NCBI GenBank assembly: GCA_009885805.1
Contig: VFJZ01000038.1
Location: 1-48,355, forward strand
DNA length: 48,355 bases
DNA from: Actinomycetota bacterium
GTDB lineage: Bacteria > Actinomycetota > Thermoleophilia > Gaiellales > F1-60-MAGs149
Direction of reading: 5' to 3'
Every line of letters starts with the position of its first letter. Position 1 is the first letter of the stretch. Below, in pieces: positions 4,849 through 40,653 of this stretch. The notes under the pieces are model-generated. The model did not search any database. It was not told the DNA's origin and was given only the letters and a program-made list of their open reading frames with translations. A program made the position numbers and the translations under genes.

Positions 4849-6915
4849 ATGGCGTTCCGCCTAGGAGTCGACGTCGGTGGCACGTTCACCGACCTGTTCT
4901 GCGTGAACGACGAGGACGGCCGGCAGTTCCGCGTGAAGACGCCGACGACGCCGGCCGACCCGTCGGAGGGAGTGATGACCGGTGTCCAGCGGATCTGCGA
5001 GACGGCGGGCATCAGCCCGTCCGCGCTGCGCAACATCCTGCACGGCACGACGGTCGCGACGAACGCGGTGCTGGAGTCGAAAGGGGCGCGCGTCGGGTTG
5101 ATCACGACGCAGGGCTTCGGGCAGATCCTGCATCTGGCACGCTCGCAGACGCCGGGGCCGCTGGCCGGCTGGATCATCATGATCAAGCCGGACCCGCCGG
5201 CCTCGCTGGAAGACACGCGCGAGGCGGTCGAGCGGATGGACGCGCGCGGCGACACGGTCGTCGCCGTCGATCGTGCGCAGGTCGAGGCGATCGTCCACGA
5301 CCTCGTGAAGTCGGGTGTCGAGTCCCTCACCGTCGGCCTGATCAACTCCTACGTCGATGGGCGCCACGAGAAGGAGATCGGCGACATCGTCGAGGCGCTC
5401 TACCCGGGCTTCCCGGTGACGCTGTCCTCCGACGTCGTCCCGGAGTTCCGCGAGTACGAGCGGACGCTGACGGCGTGCATGAACTCGTACGTGCGGCCGA
5501 CGGTGCAGCAGTACGTGCGGCGCCTGGAGGAGGGGCTGCGCGGCATCGGCGCCACCGCCGACCTCAACATCCTGCGCTCCGACGCCGGTCTGATGACCAC
5601 GCGTGAGGCCGCCCAGAACCCGATCTACGGCGTCCTCTCCGGCCCGTCCGGCGGCGTCGCCGGCGCCCTCTACGTCGCGACGCGCGCGGGCTACCCGAAC
5701 ATCCTCACGTTCGACATGGGCGGCACCTCGACCGACGTCGCGCTGTGCCAGAACGGCGAGCCGACCATCGGCCGTGACACCACCATCGGCCAGTTCCGCG
5801 TCAAGGTGCCGTCCGTCAACGTCCACACCGTCGGCGCAGGCGGCGGCTCGATCGCGCACGTCCCGCAGCTGACCGGCGCCCTGCGCGTCGGCCCCCAGTC
5901 GGCCGGCGCCGAGCCGGGCCCGGCGGCCTACGGCAAGGGCGGCGACGCGCCGACCGTGACCGACGCCAACGTCGTGCTCGGCCACCTGCCGCCGCGTCTG
6001 CTCGGCGGTGAGATGGCGCTCGACGTCGACGCCGCCCGGGCGGCGGTGCAGACGATCGGCGATGCCATGGGCCTGTCCCTCGAGCAGGCGGCCGAGGGCA
6101 TCCTCGCGATCGTCAACGAGAACATGGCCGGCGCGCTGCGGCTGGTCTCGGTGCAGCGCGGTCACGACCCGCGTGCCTTCGCGCTCGTCGCCTTCGGCGG
6201 CGCCGGCCCGCTGCACGCCAACGCGATGGCGAAGCTGATGGGTTCGTATCCGGTGATCGTGCCGCCCTCGCCGGGCCTGCTGTGCGCGATCGGCGACCTC
6301 GTCGCCGACTTCCGCAACGAGTTCGCGCAGACGCACATCCGGCTCGTGAAGGACGCCGACGCGGGCAACGTCGCCGGCATCCTCGACGACCTCGGCGCCC
6401 GCGCGAAGGCGTGGATGGAGGGCGAGGGGATCGCCGCCAGCGAGCAGCGGATCACCTACGTCGCTGACATGCGCTACCACCTGCAGGGCTACGAGATCCC
6501 GGTGCCGATCGAGGCGGCGGCGCTTCGCTCCGGCTGCCTCGCCGGGCTGGCCGGCGACTTCGACGCGCTCCACGAGCAGCTCTACGGCTTCAAGATGGAC
6601 GACGCCGAGTCCGAGATCGTCAACCTCCGCGCGATCGGCTTCGGCCTCGCGCCGAAGATCGAGCTGCCGACTGCCGAGCCGGTGCCCGGCGACGGTGCCG
6701 GCGCGATCGTCGAACAGCACGCGATCGTGTTCGAGGGCGAGCACGTCTCGACGTCGATCTACGATCGCGGCGCACTGAAGCCTGGCGACCGCTTCGCCGG
6801 GCCGGCGATCGTGACCGAGTTCGACTCCACCACGGTCGTGTTGCCCGGCTTCACGGCCGAGGTCGACCGGCACTTCAACATCCTCATCAACCCGACCGCA
6901 GGGGCGACGGCATGA
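4849..6915 (+). CDS. hyuA: Hydantoinase/oxoprolinase subunit A (HyuA, ATP-dependent)
   Basis: The 688-residue protein is the ATP-binding subunit of the hydantoinase/oxoprolinase family, which opens a cyclic amide by activating the carbonyl with ATP. Motifs include GVDVGGTFTD at the N-terminus, LHGTTVATNAVLE, LSGPSGGVAGA, TFDMGGTSTDVALC, GAGGGSIA and FGGAGPLHA, all from the actin-like fold. The start at 4849 puts GVDVGGTFTD at residues 6-15 as in relatives, with GGAAAGG-like purines upstream (ggaaagg). It pairs with hyuB through an unusual repeated spacer. With the carbamoylsarcosine-amidase-like gene downstream, N-methylhydantoin is a reasonable candidate substrate; 5-oxoproline or other lactams are alternatives. 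Confidence 0.92.
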   Translation: MAFRLGVDVGGTFTDLFCVNDEDGRQFRVKTPTTPADPSEGVMTGVQRICETAGISPSALRNILHGTTVATNAVLESKGARVGLITTQGFGQILHLARSQTPGPLAGWIIMIKPDPPASLEDTREAVERMDARGDTVVAVDRAQVEAIVHDLVKSGVESLTVGLINSYVDGRHEKEIGDIVEALYPGFPVTLSSDVVPEFREYERTLTACMNSYVRPTVQQYVRRLEEGLRGIGATADLNILRSDAGLMTTREAAQNPIYGVLSGPSGGVAGALYVATRAGYPNILTFDMGGTSTDVALCQNGEPTIGRDTTIGQFRVKVPSVNVHTVGAGGGSIAHVPQLTGALRVGPQSAGAEPGPAAYGKGGDAPTVTDANVVLGHLPPRLLGGEMALDVDAARAAVQTIGDAMGLSLEQAAEGILAIVNENMAGALRLVSVQRGHDPRAFALVAFGGAGPLHANAMAKLMGSYPVIVPPSPGLLCAIGDLVADFRNEFAQTHIRLVKDADAGNVAGILDDLGARAKAWMEGEGIAASEQRITYVADMRYHLQGYEIPVPIEAAALRSGCLAGLAGDFDALHEQLYGFKMDDAESEIVNLRAIGFGLAPKIELPTAEPVPGDGAGAIVEQHAIVFEGEHVSTSIYDRGALKPGDRFAGPAIVTEFDSTTVVLPGFTAEVDRHFNILINPTAGATA

Positions 6916-33601: not shown

Positions 33602-33651
33602 CTCAGCCGTCTCCTGAATCGTTGACGCGGGAGGTTGATCATACTCGCACC

Positions 33652-35697
33652 ATGCGAGGGGCCCGCATCGTGGGAGTCGACGTCGGCGGGACGTTCACGG
33701 ACGTGGTCCTTGCCGACCTCGACCGCGGCACGATCGAGATCGCGAAGCTGCCGACGACGCCCGACGACCAGTCGCGCGCGGTCGTCGAGGGCATCCGCCG
33801 CCTCACCGGCCTCGACGAGATCGGCGACCTGCGCCACGGCACGACGATCGCGACGAACACGATGCTGCAGGCGAACGGCGCGGTCGTCGGCGTCATCACG
33901 ACGGCCGGGTTCCGCGACGTGCTCCACCTCGCCCGCCACCAGCGGCCGCAGCACTACTCGATCATGCAGGAGATCCCCTGGCAGGACCGGCCGCTCGCGC
34001 GGCGCGTCCACCGGATCGGCGTGGCGGAGCGGATCACGGCGGACGGTGCCGTGCTCGTCCCGCTCGACCGCGACGCGGTTCGCGCCGCGGCACGCGAGCT
34101 CGGCGAGGCCGGCGTCGAGGCGGTCGCCATCTGCTTCCTGCACTCCTACCTCGATCCGACGCACGAGGACGAGGCGGCGGCGATCGTCCGCGACGAGTTG
34201 CCCGACGCCTTCGTGACGACGTCGAGCGCGATCTACCCGCAGTTCCGGGAATTCGAGCGCTTCACGACCGCAGCCGCGAACGCGTACGTCGGACCGCCCG
34301 TGCGCCGCTACTTCGAGCATCTCGCTGCCGGCGTCCGCGAGGCCGGCTTCGCGGGCGAGGTCCACGTGATGCGCTCGAACGGCGGCATCGCGCCGGTCGC
34401 GCAGGCTGCGACCGAGCCGGTCACTCTCCTGCTGTCGGGCCCGGCCGGTGGCGTCCTCGGCGGCGCGCACGCCGGTCGCGCGGCCGGGCGCGAGCTACTC
34501 GTGACGTTCGACGTCGGGGGCACCAGCGCCGACATCGGCGTCATCGCCGGCGAGGGCCTGACGGAGGCCTCCGCGCGCGACACCTTCATCGCCGGCTTCC
34601 CGATCATGGTGCCGATGCTCGACATCTCGACGATCGGCGCCGGCGGCGGCTCGATCGCACGGGTCGACGAGGGCGGCGCGTTCCGCGTCGGCCCGGCGTC
34701 CGCGGGTGCCCGCCCCGGCCCGGCCGCCTACGGCCACGGCGGAACGGCGCCGACGGTGACCGACGCGCACGTCGTCCTCGGCCGTCTCGTCCCGGAGCGG
34801 TTCCTCGGCGGCGCGATGACGCTCGACGCCGCCGCCGCGACCGCAGTCGTCAGCGACCTCGCCGGTCGGCTCGGGCTCGGGCTCGAAGAGGCCGCGGAGG
34901 GGATCCTGACGCTCCTCGACGCGAACATGGCGAACGCGATCCGGGCGCTGACCGTGCAGCGCGGCCTCGATCCCCGGCAGTACTCGCTGGTCGCCTTCGG
35001 TGGCGCCGGGCCGCTCCACGCCGTCGCCGTCGCCACGCTGCTGCAGATGCGCGAGGTGATCATCCCGCCCTACCCGGGTCTGTCGTCCGCGTTCGGGCTG
35101 CTCGAATCGGACCTGCGCTACGACGCCGTCGCCACGCAGTTCCAGGTGCAGGGCGCCGTCGACGTCGCGCGTGTCGCCGCCGACCTCCAACGGCTCGAGG
35201 ACGGCATCCGTCGCCAACTCGCGGCCGACGGCGTCGCCGCGGCCGACGTGCGGATCGAGCGGGCCGCCGACCTGCGCTATGTCGGCCAGGGCTACGAGCT
35301 GCGCGTGCCGATCGCCGACGACGCGCTGACCGGGCTCTGGGACGACCTGCACGAGCGGCACCGGCGGGAGTACGGCCACGCCTTTCCGGACACGCCGATC
35401 GAGCTTGTCAACGTGCGCGTCACCGGCGTCGGCGTGACGGCGCGGCCGCCGCAACCCCGCCCCGCCGCCGTCACGACCGCGCCGGCCGAGCGCAGCGTGT
35501 GGTTCCGCCGCGACGGTCGGCTGGCGCCGCACTCGACGCCCGTTGTCGAGCGCTCCTCACTCCGTCCGGGCGAGGGAATCGACGGGCCGGCGATCCTCGT
35601 CCAGACGGACACGACGACGGTGATCCCGCCCGGCTACCGGGCGGAGACCGACGCCGCCTACAACCTCGTCATCCCGGTCGGCGGCCGTTCGTACTAG
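33652..35697 (+). CDS. Hydantoinase/oxoprolinase subunit A, second copy (HyuA2)
   Basis: The 681-residue protein contains GVDVGGTFTDVVLADLD, LRHGTTIATNTML, LSGPAGGVLGGAHAG, TFDVGGTSADIGV, GAGGGSIARV and FGGAGPLHAVAVA, the ATP-fold set of the family. FEHLAAGVREAGF and DLRYVGQGYELRVP are also standard. It differs clearly from the first HyuA in length and detail, so this is not a recent duplicate. The matching hyuB2 lies 2 kb downstream, after two unrelated genes, an unusual separation for normally adjacent subunits. The ATG at 33652 is preferred over 33622 because GVDVGGTFTD starts within ten residues. Confidence 0.92.
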   Translation: MRGARIVGVDVGGTFTDVVLADLDRGTIEIAKLPTTPDDQSRAVVEGIRRLTGLDEIGDLRHGTTIATNTMLQANGAVVGVITTAGFRDVLHLARHQRPQHYSIMQEIPWQDRPLARRVHRIGVAERITADGAVLVPLDRDAVRAAARELGEAGVEAVAICFLHSYLDPTHEDEAAAIVRDELPDAFVTTSSAIYPQFREFERFTTAAANAYVGPPVRRYFEHLAAGVREAGFAGEVHVMRSNGGIAPVAQAATEPVTLLLSGPAGGVLGGAHAGRAAGRELLVTFDVGGTSADIGVIAGEGLTEASARDTFIAGFPIMVPMLDISTIGAGGGSIARVDEGGAFRVGPASAGARPGPAAYGHGGTAPTVTDAHVVLGRLVPERFLGGAMTLDAAAATAVVSDLAGRLGLGLEEAAEGILTLLDANMANAIRALTVQRGLDPRQYSLVAFGGAGPLHAVAVATLLQMREVIIPPYPGLSSAFGLLESDLRYDAVATQFQVQGAVDVARVAADLQRLEDGIRRQLAADGVAAADVRIERAADLRYVGQGYELRVPIADDALTGLWDDLHERHRREYGHAFPDTPIELVNVRVTGVGVTARPPQPRPAAVTTAPAERSVWFRRDGRLAPHSTPVVERSSLRPGEGIDGPAILVQTDTTTVIPPGYRAETDAAYNLVIPVGGRSY

Positions 35698-35729
35698 AGT
35701 AGAGAGGCCCGATCTGCGAGGAGCGCACG

Positions 35730-37133
35730 ATCGCCCGCATCACCGTCATCGCGACCGGCGGCACGAGGACGCCGAGTCAACTCGACCTCGCCGAGCGGTT
35801 CCTCGGCGACGGCCACGAGGTGCGCCTCCTGGCGTCACGGAACGCGATCCGTTTCCTCGTGTCGTTCGGCGCCCGGCGCCCGCAGCGCGTTCGCCCGTTC
35901 CTGCGCCACTACCGTCCGCAACTCCTCGAGACGCTCGCCTACTTCAGCGAGCGGCCGGGGAACGTGCCACACGTCAACGAGGGCAAGTGGGCTGACGTGT
36001 TCGTCGTCTGTCCGGCGACCCGGAACTCGGTCGGGAAGCTCGCCGCCGGCATCGGCGACACCTACCCGCTCCAGGTGCTCGGCGCCGTGCCGCGGTCGAA
36101 GCGCGTCATCGTCGTGCCGTCGATGAACCCGGAGATGTGGTTCGACCCGCAGCTCCAGCGCAACGTCGATGCGCTCAACGCGACCATGAAGTACCACGTC
36201 GTGTGCCCATCACGCGGGCTGATGGCGAGCGGCGACATCGGCTTCGGCGCGCAGGCGCCGATCGACGACATCGTCGAGGCCACGTACCACGCGCTCGGAC
36301 TGGTGGAGCCTTCCGTCGCGGCGGCGATTGAAGGCCGGCCGCTGACCCCGTGGGAGCGCGACGCCGACACGGCGCCGAGCGACGGGCGAACGGCGCTGCT
36401 CGTCGAGCCTGACGCCGCGCTCCGAAACGCGCTCGTCGAGCACCTGCGCCGCGAGTACCCGGCGCTGACGGTGACCGCCGTGACGCGGCCATCCGAGGCG
36501 TTGCGGTGGATGGACGGCAACGATCCCGACGTCGCGCTGGTCGACCTCGACGCCGAGGACGGAACGACCGGACGCGACGTGATCTCCCGTCTGCGCCGCG
36601 AGCCGGTCCACGTCCAGATCATCGCCACCTCGGCGCTCGACCGGCGCGCCGCACGCGCCGAGGAACTCGCCCACGACGACGTCCTGTTTCTCCCGAAGCC
36701 GATGAACCTGGCGTTCGCCGTCGGGATGATCGGCGGCTGTGTGCAGGGCGCGCGCAGTCGGTCCGAAGCGGCCGTCCGGAGGCTCGGCGCCGGCGCCGTG
36801 CTGTTCCGGGAGGGCGATCCGGGCGACCGGCTGTTCGTCGTTCAGGAAGGCAGCTTCTCGATCCGCCGGACGGTGGAGGGCGAGGAGGTCGAGATCGACA
36901 CCGTTGCGGCAGGTGAGCTTCTCGGCGAGGTCAGCTTCTTCGGAAACGGCCCGCGCACCGTCACGGCGGTCGCCGCGACGGACGCCCGGGTCGTCGATCT
37001 GGACGGCGCCGCGCTGCGCGGCTATCTCGCACGGCAGCCGCGCTGGCTGACGACGGTGCTGACGTCGTTCGTCGCGAACACGATGGAGGACGAGGCGGCG
37101 ATCGCCCGCCTCAAGCGAGACCTGGCGGACTGA
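35730..37133 (+). CDS. Flavoprotein (HFCD decarboxylase-type) - receiver - cyclic-nucleotide-binding fusion
   Basis: I see three domains. Domain 1 (to about residue 190 of the longest form) is of the PPC-decarboxylase flavoprotein type: HVNEGKWADVFVVCPATRNS, GKLAAGIGD, PSMNPEMWFDPQLQRN and SRGLMASGDIGFG. The WAD-preceding His is kept, but the LACGD cysteine reads LMASGD. Domain 2 (about 220-330) is a receiver: ALLVEPDAALRNALVEH, DVALVDLDAEDG with the likely phospho-Asp, and FLPKPMN with the conserved Lys. Domain 3 (about 350-465) is a cNMP-binding domain: GAVLFREGDPGDRLFVVQEG and GELLGEVSFFGNGPRTV. The first 30 residues, including the opening strand ITVIATGGTRTPS, lie upstream of the first normal start (GTG 35820). 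An ATC at 35730 sits seven bases after GAGGAG. The gene lies between hyuA2 and hyuB2. Confidence 0.75.
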   Translation: MARITVIATGGTRTPSQLDLAERFLGDGHEVRLLASRNAIRFLVSFGARRPQRVRPFLRHYRPQLLETLAYFSERPGNVPHVNEGKWADVFVVCPATRNSVGKLAAGIGDTYPLQVLGAVPRSKRVIVVPSMNPEMWFDPQLQRNVDALNATMKYHVVCPSRGLMASGDIGFGAQAPIDDIVEATYHALGLVEPSVAAAIEGRPLTPWERDADTAPSDGRTALLVEPDAALRNALVEHLRREYPALTVTAVTRPSEALRWMDGNDPDVALVDLDAEDGTTGRDVISRLRREPVHVQIIATSALDRRAARAEELAHDDVLFLPKPMNLAFAVGMIGGCVQGARSRSEAAVRRLGAGAVLFREGDPGDRLFVVQEGSFSIRRTVEGEEVEIDTVAAGELLGEVSFFGNGPRTVTAVAATDARVVDLDGAALRGYLARQPRWLTTVLTSFVANTMEDEAAIARLKRDLAD

Positions 37134-37653
37134 TCACGTCGTGCGGCCCGGCATGGCCCGGGCGGTCGCGGCAGCACGGCTTCGGGAGGCCATCCGCGAG
37201 TGCGCGGGGAAAGCGGTCGAGGACATCGGCTCCGCCCGATGTGACGAGCGCCATCCACGGACCGGCGTTGGCGATCAGGTAGGCGGTGACGCCCGAGGCC
37301 TCGCACGTCCCCGAGACCGGCACCGCATCGATCTCCCGCCGGAGATAGGTGCTGCCCGCCTCATCGGTCGCGTCGTAGCCCTCGAGCTCGTCGATCCGCC
37401 CGAGCAGGTCGGCGTCGATCTGGAAGACGTCTCCCTCGACGCCGTCGCCGAATCCCGGCACCATCACGCACATCCGGTGCAGAAGGCCGCAGCCGGGATT
37501 CGTACACGCCGGCTCGCGGGGGACGACGAGCGCATGCGGCAGCAGCGTCCGATACCGGCCGACGGACGCGCCGAGCTCGCCGGCGATTCGCGCGTGATTC
37601 GGGTAGCCCTCCTGCAGCGATCCGTACGCGAACAGCAGCACCACGCCGACCAC
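37111..37653 (-). CDS. Gamma-glutamylcyclotransferase-like protein
   Basis: The 180-residue protein opens with VVLLFAYGSLQEGYPNH, the YGSL signature of the cyclotransferase fold, and has the catalytic-glutamate motif IDELEGYD. The loop PACTNPGCGLLHRMC has three cysteines that could bind metal or form disulfides. GGCT enzymes release 5-oxoproline from gamma-glutamyl peptides or glutathione. It is oriented against the surrounding hyu genes and overlaps the fusion gene's end by 23 bp. Its context with HyuA/HyuB (the oxoprolinase family) and a GST-like gene fits 5-oxoproline metabolism. Confidence 0.82.
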   Translation of the reverse strand: MVGVVLLFAYGSLQEGYPNHARIAGELGASVGRYRTLLPHALVVPREPACTNPGCGLLHRMCVMVPGFGDGVEGDVFQIDADLLGRIDELEGYDATDEAGSTYLRREIDAVPVSGTCEASGVTAYLIANAGPWMALVTSGGADVLDRFPRALADGLPKPCCRDRPGHAGPHDVISPPGLA

Positions 37654-37688
37654 CCGCGAAGTCTACCCGCCGGCGCGAAGCCGATACC

Positions 37689-39395
37689 ATGGCGCCGATG
37701 CCGATCGGCCCCGTCGACGCCCAGGTGATCGGCGGCGCGCTGTCCTCGATCGCGCTCGAGATGGGCCGCAAACTCGCCCGGATGAGCTACTCCTCGATCA
37801 TCCGCGAGTCGGAGGACTTCGGCGCCGCGCTGCTCGACGCGCAGGGTCGGCAGCTCGCGGAGTCGACCGACTCGACGCCGCTGCAGCTCGGCCCGATCCC
37901 GGGCTACATGCGCGGTATCTTCACCTGCCTCGCCGCGCGCGGCGAGACGATCGAGCCGGGTGATGTGATCATGCACAACTCGCCGTACCACGGCGCCTCG
38001 CACGGGCCCGACGTCGGCGTCTGCGTGCCGGTGTTCGTCGCAGACGAGCTCGTCGGGTTCGCCTTCACGACGGCGCATCACCTCGACATCGGCGCGCTGT
38101 ACCCGGGCTCGTGCGGCATCGTCGACGCGGTCGATGCGTACGCCGAGGGGCTGCAGCTGAAGGCGATCAAGGTATACGAGGCCGGCCGCCGGGCGACCGG
38201 CGTCTGGGCGCTGCTGCGCGACAACGTGCGCGCCGCCGACATGGTCGTCGGTGACATGGAGGCGCAGATCGCGGCCTGCCGCCTGGGCGCCGAGCGGTTC
38301 GCGGAGCTCGTCGAACGCGAGGGCGGCGATCGCGTGAATGCGGCCGGCGAGGCGTTGATGGACTACTCGGAGCGGATGCTCCGCGCCCGCATCGCCGCGC
38401 TGCCCGACGGCGTCTACCGCGCCGAGAGCCGCATCGACGGCTTCACCGACAGCGCCGACGAGGCCATCCGCGACCTGCCGATCGTCGTCACGATCACCGT
38501 CTCGGGATCGGACATGCGCGTCGATCTGACCGGCACGGCGCCACAGGTCGACCTGCCGATCAACATGCCGTTCGAGGGCACCGTCGACGTCGCGATCCTG
38601 CTCACGATCCGCTCGATCCTGCTCGACTCGGCGACGACCGAGCACGTGCCGCAGAACGAGGGCCTGACCCGTCCCGTCACGATCACGGCGCCGCGCGGAA
38701 CGCTCGCGAACCCGACGTTCCCGGCGCCGACGATCGCGCGTTTCGCCGCTGGGAACATGCTCGCGGCGACCGTGATGCGCGCCCTCTCCGACGTCGTGCC
38801 GCGAAACGTCGCGGCCGGCATCGGCAACCTGAAGGTGACGGCGTACTCCGGTCTCGACGGCGAGCGCTACTGGGTGCTGATGGACATCACCGAGGGCTCG
38901 TACGGCGGGCGCTACGGCCGCGACGGCATGGATGCCGTCGACACGCTGTTCGCCAACACCCGCAACAACCCGATCGAGGACATCGAGAGCCACTACCCGC
39001 TGCGCGTCCGCCGCTACGAGCTGCGCGAGGACCTCGCCGGCGCCGGGCGCTGGCGCGGCGGTCTCGGCTCGGTGCGCGAGGTGGAGTTCCTCGCCGACGG
39101 CCGCTTCTCGCTCGAGGGCGACGGCAGCCTGCACCCGCCGTGGGGGTTGTTCGGCGGCGACCCCGGAGCGACCGGCGGGCTGATCCTGAACCCCGGCACA
39201 CCCGGTGAGCGAGAGCTTCCCTCGAACATCGCCGACCACCGCACCCGCACCGGCGACGTCATCCAGCTCCTCGGCCCGTGCGGCGGCGGCTACGGCGACC
39301 CGCGCGAGCGCGATCCCGCTGCCGTCCGGCGCGACGTCGAAGACGGCCTGATCTCGAAACGAACCGCGCGCGAGCGCTACGGAGTGACCGAATGA
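37689..39395 (+). CDS. Hydantoinase/oxoprolinase subunit B, second copy (HyuB2)
   Basis: The 568-residue protein carries SYSSIIRESEDFGAALLDAQ, GDVIMHNSPYHGASHGPDV, FTTAHHLDIGALYPGSCGIV, the mid-domain VDLTGTAPQVDLPINMPF and the C-terminal LLGPCGGGYGDPRERDPAAV. These are the typical HyuB landmarks. It would form the hydrolase with HyuA2. The start is ATG 37689 or 37698 (the second lies close to the IGPVDAQVIG segment). It overlaps the flavin reductase gene by ATGA, showing translational coupling. Confidence 0.92.
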   Translation: MAPMPIGPVDAQVIGGALSSIALEMGRKLARMSYSSIIRESEDFGAALLDAQGRQLAESTDSTPLQLGPIPGYMRGIFTCLAARGETIEPGDVIMHNSPYHGASHGPDVGVCVPVFVADELVGFAFTTAHHLDIGALYPGSCGIVDAVDAYAEGLQLKAIKVYEAGRRATGVWALLRDNVRAADMVVGDMEAQIAACRLGAERFAELVEREGGDRVNAAGEALMDYSERMLRARIAALPDGVYRAESRIDGFTDSADEAIRDLPIVVTITVSGSDMRVDLTGTAPQVDLPINMPFEGTVDVAILLTIRSILLDSATTEHVPQNEGLTRPVTITAPRGTLANPTFPAPTIARFAAGNMLAATVMRALSDVVPRNVAAGIGNLKVTAYSGLDGERYWVLMDITEGSYGGRYGRDGMDAVDTLFANTRNNPIEDIESHYPLRVRRYELREDLAGAGRWRGGLGSVREVEFLADGRFSLEGDGSLHPPWGLFGGDPGATGGLILNPGTPGERELPSNIADHRTRTGDVIQLLGPCGGGYGDPRERDPAAVRRDVEDGLISKRTARERYGVTE

Positions 39396-40024
39396 CCCAG
39401 ATCGACGTCGCCTCGCTCGACGGGGCGGACGCCTACCGCCTGATGACCGATGTCGTCGTGCCGCGCCCGATCGCGTGGGTGACGACCGTGGACGAGGCGG
39501 GGACCGTGAACCTCGCGCCGTTCAGCTTCTTCCAGGGCGTCTGCGGATCGCCGCCGACGATCATCGTCTCCGTCGGCCGTCACAGGGACGGGCTCCACAA
39601 GGACACCGGCGTGAATGCGATGGCGACGGGCGAACTCGTCGTCAACATCGTCTCGGACGACCTCGCCGAAGCGATGAACGTCACCTGCGGCGAGCACCCG
39701 GTTGGCGTTGACGAGATGGCGATCGCCGGGTTGTTGGCGGCGCCCTCGGCGCACGTCCGTCCGCCGCGCGTCGCCGAGGCCGGCGTCGCACTCGAGTGCA
39801 AGCTCGTGCAGACGGTGCCGGTCGGACGGCCGCCGCGCGACTACCTGATCCTGATCGCTGAGATCATCGCGTTCCAGATCCGCGACGACCTCTACCGCGA
39901 CGGGCGCGTCGACCCCGTCGCACTGGCACCGCTCGCCCGGCTCGGTGGGAATCGGTACCGACGCGGCGGCGAGGTGTTCGAGATGGAACGGCCCGTGATC
40001 TCGCGAACCGGAGAGGCACCATGA
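39392..40024 (+). CDS. Flavin reductase-like FMN-binding protein
   Basis: The 210-residue protein contains PRPIAWVTTVDEAGTVNLAP followed by FSFFQGVCGSPPTIIVSV, the FMN/flavin reductase domain. GVNAMATGELVVNIVS and VGVDEMAIAGLL agree with the flavoredoxin/NTA-reductase-like group. It probably supplies reduced flavin or acts as a flavin-dependent oxidoreductase. The ATGA overlaps with both hyuB2 and the GST-like gene make one transcription unit. Confidence 0.88.
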   Translation: MTQIDVASLDGADAYRLMTDVVVPRPIAWVTTVDEAGTVNLAPFSFFQGVCGSPPTIIVSVGRHRDGLHKDTGVNAMATGELVVNIVSDDLAEAMNVTCGEHPVGVDEMAIAGLLAAPSAHVRPPRVAEAGVALECKLVQTVPVGRPPRDYLILIAEIIAFQIRDDLYRDGRVDPVALAPLARLGGNRYRRGGEVFEMERPVISRTGEAP

Positions 40025-40653
40025 CGCTCACCCTGCACGACAACCTGTTGTCGTCGAACGCGCAGAAGGCGCGGTTCCTGCTGCGCGAACTCGGCCTCGC
40101 CTTCGACCGGCTCGACGTCCCGTTCACGGCGCGGCCGGACGCGCACGTCGCCGTCAACCCGACCGGCGGGATCCCCGCCCTCGTCGACGGCGGCGTCCAT
40201 CTGGCCGAGTCGAACGCGATCCTCCGCTACCTCGCCGACCGCGAGGGCCGCGACGACCTGTATCCACGCGACCTGGCAGCGCGTGCCCGGGTGGAGTGGC
40301 TGCTCGACCACCAGGCGACGTTCTTCCGGCCGGTCTCGATGACGATCGAGCAGCCGGCGTTCGGCCTGCGCCCGGGCCGCGGCCTGTTCGCCGAGGCGCC
40401 GGAGCCGGATGCGGTCGCCGCCGCGGTCACCGCCGCGACGCCGAAGCTGCAGATGACCGAACGACTGCTCGGGCCGGCTCCCTACGCCTGCCATGAGCGA
40501 TTCACGATCGTGGACGTCGCGTTCGCGCCGTTCCTGCACCGCCTGCGAGCGTCGGGCGCGGACCTGAGCGCGACACCGCGCCTCGTCGAGTGGGCCGCGG
40601 CGGTCACGTCGCGTCCCGCCTGGCAGGCGATGGCGCCCGAGACCGGGGTCTGA
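40021..40653 (+). CDS. Glutathione S-transferase-like protein
   Basis: The 210-residue protein has an N-terminal thioredoxin-like half (LHDNLLSSNAQKARFLLREL, SSN at the usual catalytic Ser/Cys region) with NPTGGIPALVDGG carrying the cis-proline and LAESNAILRYLADREG, followed by an all-helical half. It may use glutathione or another thiol. In actinobacteria mycothiol is common and glutathione often absent, so a different thiol or a nonredox role is possible. Coupled by ATGA to the flavin reductase. Confidence 0.85.
   Translation: MTLTLHDNLLSSNAQKARFLLRELGLAFDRLDVPFTARPDAHVAVNPTGGIPALVDGGVHLAESNAILRYLADREGRDDLYPRDLAARARVEWLLDHQATFFRPVSMTIEQPAFGLRPGRGLFAEAPEPDAVAAAVTAATPKLQMTERLLGPAPYACHERFTIVDVAFAPFLHRLRASGADLSATPRLVEWAAAVTSRPAWQAMAPETGV

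Follow-up and report, generated by a model that had tools for sequence, protein, structure and literature searches.

A single gene joining an HFCD-type flavin domain to receiver and cyclic-nucleotide-binding domains in an Actinomycetota bacterium

Introduction

Positions 35730 to 37133 of a 48,355-nucleotide stretch of DNA from an Actinomycetota bacterium (Thermoleophilia; contig VFJZ01000038.1; the whole stretch that was analysed is called the window here) hold an open frame in which a flavoprotein decarboxylase-like domain is followed by a receiver and a cyclic-nucleotide-binding (cNMP) domain. This raises the question of whether the three belong to one real gene and, if so, what a protein of this kind might do. 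An earlier note, made from the sequence alone, had described the architecture as probably novel, and had proposed that the flavin domain serves in sensing or altered chemistry and that the protein couples signals to cyclic-amide metabolism.

Results

Three domains in a single coding frame

The domain search that the earlier note had proposed found Flavoprotein, Response_reg and cNMP_binding in one frame, each above its Pfam cut-off, and the motifs quoted in the note are present in the translation. Independently of Pfam, a phmmer comparison of the whole protein with PDB chains matched PPC decarboxylases and cNMP proteins. The features of the gene are as follows.

35718..35723, + strand: Shine-Dalgarno-like GAGGAG, 6 nt before ATC 35730 (sequence)
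35730..37133, + strand: fusion gene, 467 aa from ATC 35730 (translated frame, AlphaFold2 model, codon usage)
35730..36320, + strand: HFCD/Flavoprotein domain (Pfam PF02441, residues 3-163, 73.8 bits against a cut-off of 22.7; AlphaFold2; Foldseek; alignments)
35970-35972, + strand: His81 of the flavin domain (alignments)
36117-36140, + strand: PSMNPEMW, residues 130-137 (alignments)
36228-36230, + strand: Ser167, which replaces the clamp Cys (alignments)
36384..36743, + strand: receiver domain (Pfam PF00072, residues 223-327, 42.4 bits against a cut-off of 30.2; alignment with related receivers)
36543-36545, + strand: putative phospho-acceptor Asp272 of the receiver (alignment)
36741..37133, + strand: cyclic-nucleotide-binding domain (Pfam PF00027, residues 350-435, 74.9 bits against a cut-off of 27.5; alignment)

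The open frame (35703-37133, + strand) begins after a TAG at 35700-35702, and none of the 467 codons between 35730 and 37133 is a stop. GC3 lies between 0.87 and 0.95 over the entire fusion frame, and the codon-usage scores of the flavin, receiver and cNMP parts (0.695, 0.655 and 0.658, respectively) compare with 0.65-0.79 in neighbouring genes; the other five frames score 0.21-0.53. These values indicate that the frame is not a chance ORF in DNA of 71% GC; codon usage is native in all three domains, and this is a real single gene. An assembly artefact joining separate genes, which the fragmented state of the genome (101 contigs), the lack of an orthologue and the missing canonical start could suggest, is very improbable, since two joins would both have had to keep the frame, codon usage is uniform, and the genes that flank the join on either side of the contig are found together in relatives.

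The start at 35730 given in the earlier note fits the GAGGAG just upstream but not the usual choice of codons, as there is no in-frame ATG, GTG or TTG between the TAG and GTG 35820. The latter, at residue 31, is the first canonical start and would cut off residues 1-30, which form strand 1, the flavin loop and helix 1 in the AlphaFold2 model of the flavin domain (strand at residues 3-8; mean pLDDT of 94 over residues 1-10). The sequence around ATC 35730 reads IARITVIATGG. Since GTG 35820 would truncate the flavin fold, and the ribosome-binding-like motif is suitably placed, translation likely starts at ATC 35730, or at an ATG miscalled there. A full-length single-sequence model was unusable (mean pLDDT 35).

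The flavin domain retains the residues of the oxidative half-reaction

Both the PF02441 match and the fold, as well as an active-site His and a PXMNXXMW motif, place the first domain within the HFCD superfamily (homo-oligomeric flavin-containing Cys decarboxylases). Its AlphaFold2 model (mean pLDDT 86.4, pTM 0.83) matched PPC decarboxylase and CoaBC with a Foldseek probability of 1.00; the top match was the C175S mutant of PPC decarboxylase with a trapped intermediate (PDB 1mvn, E 4.9e-14), followed in order by CoaBC, AtHal3, SpaF, MrsD, human PPCDC, TvaF and EpiD. The histidine that had been noticed before the WAD motif is His81, which is invariant across three flavin-domain alignments, and PSMNPEMW matches PXMNXXMW, with Asn133 and Met136 retained. 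In AtHal3a the oxidative first step has been assigned to His90, N142 and M145, and the reductive second step to a Cys (PMC9604783). The Cys is indeed missing here, as had been pointed out: the clamp stretch reads LMASGD where decarboxylases have LACGD, with Ser167 in place of the reductive Cys. The ASGD stretch is identical to that of the plant AtHAL3a C175S chain (PDB 1mvl/1mvn); that enzyme, unlike the fusion, has a single domain and carries an engineered mutation. The flavin loop has changed, with ATGGTRTPSQ in place of VTGGIAAYK, and the domain forms a very long branch, without a supported partner, in a 39-row tree, so that FMN binding is not assured.

The domain has the fold, the active-site His and the PXMNXXMW motif in common with CoaC/PPC decarboxylases (AtHAL3a, and the N-terminal half of CoaBC), but differs from them in its clamp Ser, its flavin loop and its NCBIfam equivalog scores, which stay far below cut-off for both CoaC (75.2 versus 261.4 bits) and CoaBC (71.8 versus 219.7 bits). 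A separate CoaBC is present elsewhere in the genome, as is a second Flavoprotein-family protein of UbiX size, and CoA synthesis therefore need not depend on the fusion gene. We rejected CoA synthesis as its main role on account of the scores and of the separate CoaBC.

LMASGD, which the earlier note took to suggest sensing or altered chemistry, does not by itself point to sensing. The clamp of the genome's own CoaBC reads ELAEGE instead of LACGD, relatives within the order have AEGE or GEGG, likewise without Cys, and single-domain flavoproteins of Rubrobacter carry a GLMASAEE-type clamp; loss of the Cys was thus rejected as proof of sensing. These Rubrobacter proteins are the closest to the fusion over the full domain length (33-38% identical, with a shared GLMAS clamp), but differ from it in that neither a receiver nor a cNMP domain occurs in their open frames. 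The Rubrobacter gene adjoins a NUDIX-like gene in each of three loci inspected.

Peptidyl-cysteine decarboxylases of the EpiD, MrsD and TvaF type also share the HFCD fold, and carry out oxidative decarboxylation. EpiD, MrsD, TvaF, SpaF and CypD all figure among the fold matches, which could suggest a RiPP-pathway decarboxylase with added regulation; this we consider highly unlikely, as the best fold matches are PPC decarboxylases, the EpiD-type enzymes are single-domain proteins with a RiPP context that the fusion gene lacks, and a scan of 31 proteins of the window revealed no lanthionine, YcaO or peptide-transport gene.

The receiver and cNMP domains keep most signature residues

In an alignment with 21 receivers from related genomes, Asp272, Thr300 and Lys323 are retained. 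The acidic pair reads Glu226-Pro227 where the relatives have Glu-Asp or Asp-Asp, and the full acidic Mg2+ pair is thus absent from this receiver, Pro227 standing for one Mg2+-site Asp. When the receiver alone was compared with PDB chains by phmmer, only weak receiver matches were obtained (best E 0.001).

The phosphate-binding cassette of the cNMP domain is GELLGEVSFFGNGPRT, which has Glu400 and Arg409, followed by Thr410; Gly399, Glu400 and Arg409 are retained in an alignment whose E. coli CRP row is a rough guide only. A search for class III cyclases (PF00211) found none in the genome, whose completeness is rated at about 95% and which encodes two other cNMP proteins. Beyond the cNMP domain the protein continues for approximately 32 residues, and Pfam detected neither an HTH nor any other output domain there; the C-terminal DNA-binding HTH of CRP/FNR-type regulators is therefore missing. 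An anti-phage system was considered and rejected, as the PADLOC matches are weak and confined to the cNMP domain.

The architecture was found in one genome only

The whole protein or its C-terminal part was searched against 101 relatives and against genomes of the order (129), the class (399) and the phylum Actinomycetota (396). None of these sets yielded a three-domain relative: the only match across all three domains was the window's own gene, the others being mainly single-domain or CoaBC-like. A few matches cross a domain border; for example, one in genome G025 spans residues 72-359 and lies in a 417-aa frame, about the length of a CoaBC, and another, in G043, spans residues 265-447 in a 1347-aa frame. 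Exact peptide patterns retrieved no close relative from GTDB contigs. When the flavin-domain alignment was used on the same contigs, no receiver or cNMP domain fused to a flavin domain was seen in the best 80 loci of 583 relatives; in one of these loci (L056), a weak cNMP match lies 4.6 kb from the flavin domain. Viral contigs held no full-length relative, and plasmids no place with 80% coverage of the query. Both the proposed search of other genomes, which turned up no second case, and the literature searched, in which no described protein of the same three-domain kind was found, agree with the earlier claim of novelty: the domains are known, and their combination appears new. Without an orthologue, there is no conservation to show selection on the combination.

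The fusion gene lies in an insertion between hyuA and hyuB

The immediate neighbours of the gene are the following.

33622..35697, + strand: hyuA-type gene (Hydantoinase_A/oxoprolinase), upstream neighbour (Pfam)
37111..37653, - strand: GGACT-family gene (gamma-glutamylamine cyclotransferase-like), convergent (Pfam PF06094, 44.5 bits)
37689..39395, + strand: hyuB-type gene (Hydantoinase_B), downstream neighbour (Pfam)

The gene does lie between hyuA and hyuB, as had been described, but shares this place with the GGACT gene on the other strand, which overlaps its 3' end, antisense, by 23 nt. Together they fill the 1,991 bp (35698-37688) that split the pair. In ten relatives with the orthologous pair (tblastn identity 52.8-57.1% for hyuA and 61.2-64.6% for hyuB) the two genes are adjacent, with 11-38 nt between matched ends, and their syntenic loci gave no GGACT match. 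To the left of the insert, HydA and hyuA are found together in relatives too, and to its right relatives share hyuB, FlavRed, Amidase, DMT, SnoaL, CobW and PDA. The fusion gene and the GGACT gene are thus a lineage-specific insertion; its GC equals the window mean, and its edges showed neither terminal repeats nor a mobile-element signature.

The neighbourhood comparison suggested in the earlier note therefore speaks against the conserved association on which a coupling to cyclic-amide metabolism would depend. The adjacency of hyuA and hyuB in ten relatives leaves the link to lactam or hydantoin metabolism weak, and at E <= 1e-60 the genome gives at least nine hyuA-type matches, of which the window includes two (4849-6915 and 33622-35697), while some relatives give at least 11; the coupling is only a guess. 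By annotation only, the GGACT gene, hyuA/hyuB and a GST (40021-40653) recall the gamma-glutamyl cycle.

Discussion

The reading that we prefer, tentatively and at somewhat less than an even chance, is that of a homo-oligomeric HFCD-type flavoprotein in which phosphorylation of the receiver and a ligand of the cNMP domain control activity or assembly. By analogy with its relatives, the flavin domain would form a trimer or dodecamer and bind FMN between the subunits. It would retain the oxidative first half of the reaction, with an acyl- or peptidyl-cysteine-like substrate that need not be phosphopantothenoylcysteine, and would release an ene-thiol rather than a reduced product. Phosphorylation of Asp272 and a ligand in the cNMP cassette could then alter the packing or the activity of the flavin core. 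The regulatory tail would stand where CoaB stands in CoaBC; Mycobacterium CoaBC is a dodecamer with CoaC domains as the core and CoaB attached C-terminally (PMC7794376), a layout that offers a precedent for a C-terminal extension on an HFCD core. The job of such a protein, which has no DNA-binding domain, would be to let two signals tune a flavin reaction without a transcriptional step.

This controlled flavoprotein is consistent with the three Pfam domains, the predicted fold matches, His81 and PSMNPEMW, and the signature residues of the receiver and cNMP domains. Against it count the altered flavin loop, the long branch, Pro227, the class III cyclase that was not found, and the want of an orthologue and of a full-length structure. 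Its most far-reaching form, in which an HFCD enzyme is itself both a response regulator and a receptor for a cyclic nucleotide or other small ligand, is controlled non-transcriptionally and, owing to its natural Ser, halts at the ene-thiol, we regard as rather unlikely.

The main rival, less probable than the controlled flavoprotein yet a serious contender, is a non-catalytic sensor or adaptor, in which the HFCD domain would sense flavin, redox state or a thiol ligand, or would only be an oligomeric scaffold, while the receiver and cNMP domains dock partners. The altered flavin loop, long branch and lost Cys would suit such a role, as would the share of the regulatory domains, which exceeds half of the protein, and an HFCD protein is known to act in regulation, namely Hal3, with Ppz1 (PMC9604783). 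Yeast Hal3, a phosphatase inhibitor, and Vhs3 offer the comparison, but are eukaryotic, target a phosphatase and lack receiver and cNMP domains. Against it stands the retention of His81 and of the complete PXMNXXMW motif, for which a pure scaffold would have no use.

It is distinctly unlikely that the gene is a recent lineage-specific fusion of domains joined by chance, with little or no integrated function. The gene is a singleton in every search, was inserted into an otherwise adjacent hyuA-hyuB pair, has an incomplete receiver acidic pair and lacks a canonical start codon, all of which would fit a chance fusion; 467 codons without a stop, native codon usage throughout, and catalytic and signature residues retained in all three domains do not.

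As judged from its sequence, the protein may be an enzyme that signals in the cell switch. Enzymatic outputs are known among response regulators, but no HFCD flavin domain was found among them in the genomes and literature searched. If the protein works as proposed, two-component and ligand signals would be tied directly to flavin thiol chemistry, and if its flavin domain is a sensor instead, yeast Hal3, an HFCD protein used in regulation, would have a parallel in bacteria.
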